Part shown: positions 1 to 43,545 of the stretch, piece after piece | Layout: each line of letters starts with the position of its first letter | Position numbering within the stretch: position 1 is the stretch's first letter | Assembly (NCBI GenBank): GCA_031254875.1 | Contig: JAIRTW010000001.1 | Coordinates: 1 to 43,545, forward strand | Length of the DNA stretch: 43,545 bases | Source: Candidatus Bathycorpusculum termitum | GTDB taxonomy: Archaea; Thermoproteota; Bathyarchaeia; Bathyarchaeales; Bathycorpusculaceae | Reading direction: 5' to 3' | Translations under genes and position numbers: made by a program | Notes under the pieces: generated by a model | What the model was told of the DNA's origin: nothing | The model's input: only the letters and a program-made list of their open reading frames with translations | Databases searched by the model: none

Positions 1-116
1 TTCTTTTTTTCTCCTTTGAGCGGCGATAACTCTGCTTTTAGAGTTACCAAGCGCTCTATGAGTTAATCCAGTCGTTTAATATTTAAATTAAAGCCATAAG
101 TTTCACTTATGACAAA
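1..116 (-). promoter_or_regulatory. Promoter and structured leader of an off-window minus-strand gene (cassette copy 1)
   Basis: Read on the minus strand this stretch is near-identical in layout to 43344-43463. In order it shows the dyad CATAAGT-GAA-ACTTATG (111-95), a TATA-like AT run (about 90-76), the hairpin AACTCT-AAAAGC-AGAGTT (45-28) extended by GAGCG/CGCTC outer arms, and a Shine-Dalgarno AAAGGAG (17-11). By comparison with copy 2, the start codon should lie a few bases to the left of position 1. The gene it drives is not visible. Two bases differ in the upper stem between the copies, and both changes keep G-T (G-U) pairing, which argues for an RNA structure. Confidence 0.75.
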
Positions 117-42968: not shown

Positions 42969-43343
42969 GTTATCTATCTGTGTACCCTTTTCCTTTTAAC
43001 CTTAAGGCTTTTTGTCAGATGCAAAACTTACATTTATGTTTAAAAAATGGATATTGATTGTTCAAATACAAAATTTTATCGGTCACCTTGTTACTCATGG
43101 CAGATCAGTGGTCACACTGCAAAATTAGGTTTTTTACTGTGCGACTTGATTGTCTGGTTGCTGATTTAATCACAGGATACACAGTAAAACTTCTCAATTA
43201 TTATGATGATGTGGTTATGGCGGTGGGTGTTCAAACTAAACGAAAAATCTAACATCTGAAATGTTGGTTAAAGAAAACAAACATTGTATGTGGAGAAAAC
43301 GTGAATTATCCCTTATATTTTTCATCGGCTGTTTTTTGAATTG
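42969..43343. other. Gene-free stretch with a 10-base-arm inverted repeat
   Basis: TTTTACTGTG (43132-43141) and CACAGTAAAA (43180-43189) are perfect arms 38 bases apart. A 64-codon frame at 43058-43252 is open but overlaps this repeat, has no ribosome binding site and is not called. Confidence 0.45.
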
Positions 43344-43463
43344 TTTGTCATAAGTGGGACTTATGGCGTCCGTTTAAATATTAAATGGCTGTGGTTTAAC
43401 CTATAGAGCGCTTGGTAACTCTAAAAGCAGAGTTGCCGCCGCTCAAAGGAGAAAAAAAGAAAA
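43344..43463 (+). promoter_or_regulatory. Promoter and structured leader of the secreted-protein gene (cassette copy 2)
   Basis: In order: dyad CATAAGT-GGG-ACTTATG (43349-43365) and TATA-like TTTAAATATTAAA (43373-43385). Next comes GAGCG, opening a hairpin whose inner stem is GGTAACTCT/AGAGTTGCC (loop AAAAGC, 43423-43428) and whose outer stem is GAGCG/CGCTC. Then AAAGGAG (43445-43451), and the ATG at 43464. With TATA at this position the transcript should start near 43403-43406, so the hairpin would form the mRNA 5' end. Copy 1 at 1-116 shares every element. Confidence 0.8.
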
Positions 43464-43545
43464 ATGCAAAACAAAAATAAACTATTTGCCGCAATTATAA
43501 TACTGGCACTAGTCTCATCAATGAGCTTATCCCTTTTCACAATAC
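43464..43545 (+). CDS. Start of a secreted or membrane-anchored protein (cut by the window end)
   Basis: Only 27 codons are present. MQNKNK is followed by a hydrophobic stretch (LFAAIIILALVSSMSLSLF), a typical signal peptide or N-terminal anchor. AAAGGAG is 12 bases before the ATG. The identity cannot be judged from this fragment. The elaborate leader suggests a highly expressed or regulated surface protein (inference), with a likely paralogue off the left edge under the same type of leader. Confidence 0.75.
   Translation, partial: MQNKNKLFAAIIILALVSSMSLSLFTI

Follow-up and report, generated by a model that had tools for sequence, protein, structure and literature searches.

The DNA analysed here, referred to as the window, is a stretch of 43,545 nucleotides from Candidatus Bathycorpusculum termitum, which belongs to a Bathyarchaeales genus whose members come from termite guts, peat soils and sediments (PMC10684969, in part). 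The window is the complete contig G000:C81 of its genome assembly (2,295,504 bases in 123 contigs), and genes carried on it include those for archaeal Pus10, the DP2 subunit of DNA polymerase D and Cdc6. Near its right end lie the gene for a TrmB-family regulator, an operator-like dyad, a TATA box, a two-part hairpin, a Shine-Dalgarno sequence and the 5' end of a gene for a secreted protein (Table 1). As an initial annotation of the sequence had described, this cassette is repeated, inverted, at the left end, where the 120 bases leading up to the right-hand start codon are found again with an 87% match (43340-43463 on the forward strand against 1-117 on the reverse strand). Since the window is one whole contig, both cassettes sit at contig ends. 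The dyad, CATAAGT-N3-ACTTATG, is exact in both copies, with identical arms and spacers of GGG and GAA, again as annotated. The TATA box is invariant across five aligned copies and slightly altered in the relatives G028 and G014, and in the window it stands 33 bp from the hairpin, which agrees with the annotation in placing the hairpin close to where transcription is predicted to start. A reading of the hairpin as a transcription terminator was rejected, as there is no T run 3' of it and the Shine-Dalgarno sequence comes next.

Table 1. Positions in the window of the two cassette copies and of the adjoining regulator gene.
Feature	Position	Strand	Remarks
TrmB-family regulator, 260 aa	42186..42968	-	Points away from the cassette; Pfam TrmB PF01978 and TrmBL2 structural matches
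Weak second operator copy TTGTCAGATGCAAAACTTACATT	43012..43034	+	Precedes the regulator's own promoter; shares its 23-bp frame with three relatives, whose copies are clearer
Operator TTGTCATAAGTGGGACTTATGGC	43345..43367	+	Contains the perfect 7-bp dyad, 43349-43365
TATA box TTTAAATATTAAA	43373..43385	+	5 bp downstream of the operator; read from sequence
Two-part hairpin	43406..43444	+	Outer stem GAGCG/CGCTC, then an internal loop and a 9-10-pair inner stem; folding and model matches in relatives
Shine-Dalgarno AAAGGAG	43445..43451	+	Abuts the hairpin; GGAG predicted unpaired, 0.97
Secreted-protein gene, 5' end (MQNKNKLFAAIIILAL...)	43464..43545	+	Truncated by the contig end; full-length G004 orthologue 867 aa
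Left copy: leader 3' end	1..17	-	Shine-Dalgarno at 11-17; contig ends short of the start codon
Left copy: hairpin	18..56	-	Sequence and folding
Left copy: TATA box TTTAAATATTAAA	75..87	-	Sequence match
Left copy: operator TTGTCATAAGTGAAACTTATGGC	93..115	-	Operator consensus search

Cassette copies and their independence

A third copy of the cassette opens contig C79 of the same genome, where the first 119 bases equal the left end of the window exactly before identity drops, the whole 225-base match standing at 92%. The end of contig C52 and the start of contig C53 (loci L158 and L159) hold the 3' ends of near-identical surface genes with exactly 119 bases in common, one end of each contig carrying the final 42 positions of the profile for this kind of surface protein. 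The contig name of one relative is 'k119_874955', where 'k119' is taken to mean that the assembler used words of 119 bases. Both 119-base identities are read as putative junctions made in assembly where a gene is repeated; contigs probably broke off at nearly identical copies of the gene, and the bodies of these copies are absent from the bin. On this reading, the left-end and C79 copies are counted as one junction and not as two independent witnesses. The annotated multiplicity of the cassette is therefore retained in part: more than one such promoter exists in this genome, and two of the three copies share one assembly junction. Upstream of the third copy, C79 encodes a repeat-rich, secreted-looking protein (L021, 273-2141).

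Outside this genome, a DNA search of 61 genomes (its own included) gave convincing matches in G004 and G023. A covariance model built from four leaders and searched in 32 genomes of the genus then gave strong matches (E 1.8e-7 or better) in five, namely three in G000, the window's own genome, and others in G004, G023, G028 and G014. The exact dyad was found at three places in the window's own genome, each inside this cassette. As relatives in four other genomes carry leader copies, a single private duplication confined to this genome, which the initial annotation had named as an outcome that would undo its reading, is excluded. Three named records carry this locus: Candidatus Bathycorpusculum acetigenerans, Candidatus Bathycorpusculum hydrogenotrophicum and a 'Nitrososphaerota archaeon'. 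The order of genes ahead of TrmB also agrees between the window and G014: both have a PPDK gene and a Csl4-like exosome gene, the latter assigned by reading of the translations. It is also very unlikely that the repeat arose by recent copying or gene conversion of a promoter segment, its shared sequence then reflecting recent descent more than function. Such an origin would account for the identity of the left and C79 copies and for contigs that break both here and at 3' ends, where near-identical gene copies seem to exist; however, the right-end cassette is an orthologous locus at which the flanks in G004, G014 and G028 have diverged while operator, TATA box and hairpin are kept, and other members of the gene family carry unrelated hairpins.

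The leader model also gave weak matches at 10 places (E 0.004-0.09), which were set aside. Four of these (L029, L030, L034 and L037) precede surface genes, L034 and L037 having other clear hairpins; L032 and L035 precede unrelated genes, and no surface-gene start lies downstream of L027, L028, L031 and L038. A 26-base match in G060 (E 0.009) was treated as chance, and a phage search with window positions 43300-43545 returned no match.

The operator and the TrmB-family regulator

The window regulator matches the TrmB helix-turn-helix PF01978 at 55.2 bits against a cut-off of 25.6, and the C-terminal Regulator_TrmB domain PF11495 below its cut-off of 22.2, at 13.1 bits in the window protein and 17.2 and 18.3 in two orthologues. 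The closest solved chains are those of TrmBL2 (PDB 5bqt, 5box and 5bpd; E 2.2e-7), which are 262-264 aa long against 260 aa here. TrmBL2 is an abundant chromatin protein, whereas here a small number of specific sites is seen. Up to 21 TrmB matches occur in one genome; an orthologue of the window regulator is found in 5/32 genus genomes at 78-100% identity (next best match 39%), the same five that carry strong leader matches, and regulator and surface gene are divergent neighbours in four of them (G000, G004, G028 and G014). TrmB-family paralogues are likewise seen repeatedly divergent to surface-protein genes elsewhere in the genus (L053, L054, L055, L058, L062, L065, L066, L072 and L073).

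The G004 dyad, CGTAAGT-GAT-ACTTACG, shows a symmetric change in both arms relative to the window, while the arms of the G028 and G014 dyads (CATAAGC-NAT-ACTTACG) are imperfectly matched; in the window and in G004 the dyad-containing site ends 5 bp before TATA. An extended 23-bp operator consensus, TTGTCRTAAGYNNNACTTAYGRC, was derived from these sites and searched in five genomes, where every occurrence with 0 mismatches is at a leader promoter, six in all, from four of the five. Copies with 2-3 mismatches precede the regulator's own promoter in G004, G028 and G014, and three further 3-mismatch places in the five genomes equal the level of a reversed-pattern control. The regulator-side copy in the window falls outside 3 mismatches of the consensus and is recognisable only by alignment. 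At the G023 leader copy the consensus search found no operator, though G023 keeps the regulator.

In a survey of 30 TrmB loci, in which the regulator start was located in 22 and not in 8, the half-site GTCRTAAG adjoins 4 of the 22 (L048, L051, L052 and L071), all close homologues, and is absent from the other 18, the G023 orthologue (L050) among them. The half-site also occurs at L049 (by consensus search) and L053 (by direct listing), both without a located regulator start, and its 7-base core in L075 and L076. Half-sites stand beside two TrmB paralogues in G007, which follow the orthologues in score (39% and 35%). A different dyad, GTTGTTGGG-GAA-CCCACCAAC, with 9-bp arms and a 3-bp spacer, belongs to a TrmB-paralogue pair in G009 and ends 5 bp before a weak TATA match (3/100 shuffles were as good). 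When 20 named loci were scanned for a dyad upstream of TATA, with 19 genes reported (L065 yielded none), a dyad reached threshold in 4/19 (L016, L066, L071 and L073); L073 was matched by 12/100 shuffles, the TATA call is weak in L066 and L071, and G028 and G014, with their mismatched dyads, fell below threshold.

These features are comparable to those of TrmB and TrmBL1 in Thermococcales, which share the TrmB winged-helix domain and for which a palindrome with a 3-bp spacer (TACT-N3-AGTA in Pyrococcus) and a site upstream of BRE/TATA at activated promoters are described (PMC4158304, in part). A palindromic operator near BRE/TATA, as in a TrmB-type promoter, is present in the window and in G004. 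The differences are that the window operator has another sequence, that the Regulator_TrmB domain remains below cut-off and that the target is a surface-protein gene. A haloarchaeal TrmB binds its own promoter (PMC4158304), to which the regulator-side copies described above, as predicted sites, may be compared. TrmB sites upstream of BRE/TATA are associated with activation and sites downstream with repression (PMC4158304); as the operator here lies upstream, activation is the likelier sense under this position rule.

We regard the neighbouring TrmB protein as the factor most likely to bind the dyad. That a different factor binds the dyad is rather unlikely, although G023 retains the TrmB orthologue with no clear operator and the link between TrmB and dyad is one of association; against such a factor stand the co-occurrence of leader and TrmB orthologue in the same genomes and the half-sites beside two of the next TrmB paralogues.

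The leader hairpin and the surface-protein family

The predicted folds of the two hairpins in the window have energies of -21.6 (right) and -19.0 kcal/mol (left), with z values of -4.4 and -4.3 and 0/200 shuffles as good for each. The G023 hairpin reaches z -5.5 with an inner stem that is largely different yet fully paired, while that of G004 is unexceptional (z only -1.8; 10/200 shuffles as good) and includes mismatched inner pairs. Across six leaders the outer stem GAGCG/CGCTC and the adjoining CTT (CTTG) are nearly invariant, with one change in G014, and the inner stem varies. When arms are exchanged between the right copy of the window (C81R) and G023, half of the pairing energy is lost (sums of -24.9 kcal/mol for cognate and -11.8 kcal/mol for swapped arms); in swaps among G004, G028 and G014 the cognate arms are not favoured. 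The covariation test proposed in the initial annotation gave no support: a column-based score on the six aligned leaders found one double-change pair, a count reached by 284/500 shuffles, and 89.3% of cells paired against 89.1% when shuffled. This is partly because the inner stem shifts by insertions, and the claim of an RNA structure consequently rests more on the gene family.

The annotated secreted product downstream, a large PQQ-propeller protein, is borne out by full-length orthologues of 867 (G004), 894 (G028) and 900 aa (G014), which have a PQQ_2 match above cut-off and, by eye, an N-terminal signal and a C-terminal membrane segment. A short relative in G023 (L125, on contig C113) has the N-terminal part and a membrane segment, with no propeller and no leader. 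Profile searches gave 16 surface-family matches in the window's own genome and between 1 and 45 in each of 18 further genomes of the genus, with 8 to 45 in 18 of the 19 genomes searched and one in the remaining genome; these counts are of matches and not of genes, and two E-value limits were used.

Leaders of 191 genes with a usable start and Shine-Dalgarno sequence (78 of the family and 113 others) were folded and compared with 100 dinucleotide shuffles each. A z below -2 was found in 24/78 family genes and 4/113 controls (Mann-Whitney p 6e-7), leaving 54/78 family genes without a strong hairpin. The enrichment persists at 17/65 against 4/113 (Fisher p 1.3e-5) once 10 leader-search loci and 3 rows matching from deep inside the profile are excluded; both p-values are optimistic, since the family genes are related to each other. 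Hairpins without this operator stand in upstream stretches of G005, G013, G018 and G022, and half-sites without a strong leader hairpin in G007. As operator and hairpin thus occur apart, they are taken as separate modules, which supports the annotated view of a DNA dyad and an RNA hairpin as distinct conserved parts.

Under strict scoring, TATA start to hairpin start measures 29-36 in 11 of the 16 family genes with a strong hairpin and a strong TATA, a range picked after a first look at the distances; permuting hairpin positions gave a mean of 3.7, and none of 5000 trials reached 11. Ten of the 16 genes come from outside the leader searches, 6 of them within the range. Under looser scoring, strong-hairpin (10/29) and weak-hairpin genes (6/23) within the range hardly differ; the hairpin start was trimmed in the strict scoring, after the fact, because Shine-Dalgarno pairs often blurred the loose one. 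The comparison has no control set, as none of the control genes combined a strong hairpin with a strong TATA. With TATA near -26/-27 (PMC4158304, in part), the strict distance places the hairpin start within several bases of the predicted transcript start.

The median probability that the Shine-Dalgarno sequence is unpaired is 0.74 in the 24 hairpin genes, compared with 0.35 in the 54 other family genes and 0.36 in the 113 controls (p 1.5e-4 for hairpin genes against controls). For the cassette leaders themselves, the GGAG is predicted to be unpaired at 0.55, 0.98 and 0.95 in three relatives, next to 0.97 in the window. Translational switching by hiding the ribosome site, as suggested in the initial annotation, is not favoured by this predicted openness. 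More generally, we regard as quite unlikely a regulatory RNA switch whose invariant outer stem and internal loop are recognised by a protein or small molecule that toggles translation: the near-invariance of outer stem and CTTG beside a varying inner stem would suit it, but the Shine-Dalgarno sequence is mostly open in all four leaders, the whole window has 0 Rfam matches above gathering score and the hairpins of other family members lack this sequence. Four weak Rfam matches at the two window ends (E 0.14-3.7; snoRNA and plant-virus models) were judged to be chance. Also unlikely is a hairpin that only insulates the ribosome site as a translation enhancer, with no effect on decay. The higher accessibility in hairpin genes and the contact between hairpin and Shine-Dalgarno sequence are in keeping with insulation, but accessibility alone leaves the strict TATA-hairpin distance, an effect that is missing in looser scoring, unexplained.

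A proposed two-layer reading of the cassette

The best reading, which we hold with slightly better than even confidence, joins TrmB-type transcription control to a 5'-terminal hairpin that would protect the mRNA and free the ribosome site, so that the cassette would be a module controlling expression of a multi-copy surface-protein gene in two layers; its steps of binding, activation, transcription start and protection from decay are those that we infer. At the DNA layer, the next-door TrmB-family regulator would bind the dyad directly upstream of BRE/TATA, an activating position for TrmB, and would probably also bind the weaker copy before its own promoter. At the RNA layer, transcription would start at the hairpin or a few bases before it, giving an mRNA that begins with a stable two-part stem-loop. 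This stem-loop would shield the 5' end from an aCPSF2/RNase J-type exonuclease and keep the adjoining Shine-Dalgarno sequence out of other structures. Guarding the 5' end and keeping the ribosome site free are most likely what the hairpin does.

Protection of archaeal mRNA 5' ends is little known, and many archaeal mRNAs are leaderless. Bacterial mRNA is stabilised by a hairpin placed at its 5' end or close to it, and the stem-loops of ompA, papA and aprE resemble the one described here in this placement and in having the ribosome site close by (PMC3997798, in part). Unlike these, the present hairpins are archaeal, are predicted from sequence and extend across a gene family whose hairpins are unrelated in sequence. 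Sulfolobus has the 5'-to-3' exonuclease aCPSF2 (PMC3792030, in part), and two beta-CASP proteins in the window's own genome are candidate nucleases of this kind; as opposed to the Sulfolobus decay system, an archaeal 5'-hairpin leader of this type was not found in the literature search.

TrmB operators and stabilising 5' hairpins are known kinds of element, and their combination across an archaeal gene family appears to be new: a literature search of open-licence papers did not find unrelated-sequence 5' hairpins across an archaeal surface-gene family together with TrmB-paired promoters, and a word search of a paper on termite-gut Bathyarchaeia (PMC7886697) found none of the terms promoter, S-layer, surface protein and untranslated. 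As a wider and more tentative proposal, which we consider possible while leaning against it, Bathycorpusculum would use a sequence-independent hairpin at the mRNA start, touching an open Shine-Dalgarno sequence, for part of an expanded surface family, with operator and TrmB paralogue swapped from clade to clade. If true, 5'-hairpin mRNA protection would have a counterpart in archaea that evolved as a family-wide module. Leaders that are alike in shape and place and unlike in sequence would provide natural comparisons for 5'-end protection in a group without genetics, and the cassette suggests how these archaea control an expanded surface-protein family.

Two further elements were observed upstream of surface-family genes. 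The short inverted repeat TCACGATARGTGAGTG is shared by L148, L155, L029, L143 and L043 in several genomes and may be another operator. A conserved block, CACTAGAWGTTCATCSAATTTAWATA, lies just before the TATA of a related surface gene at L129, L131 and L133 (in G018, G013 and G015), where the upstream neighbour encodes a protein of 232-236 aa on the same strand that is not TrmB.
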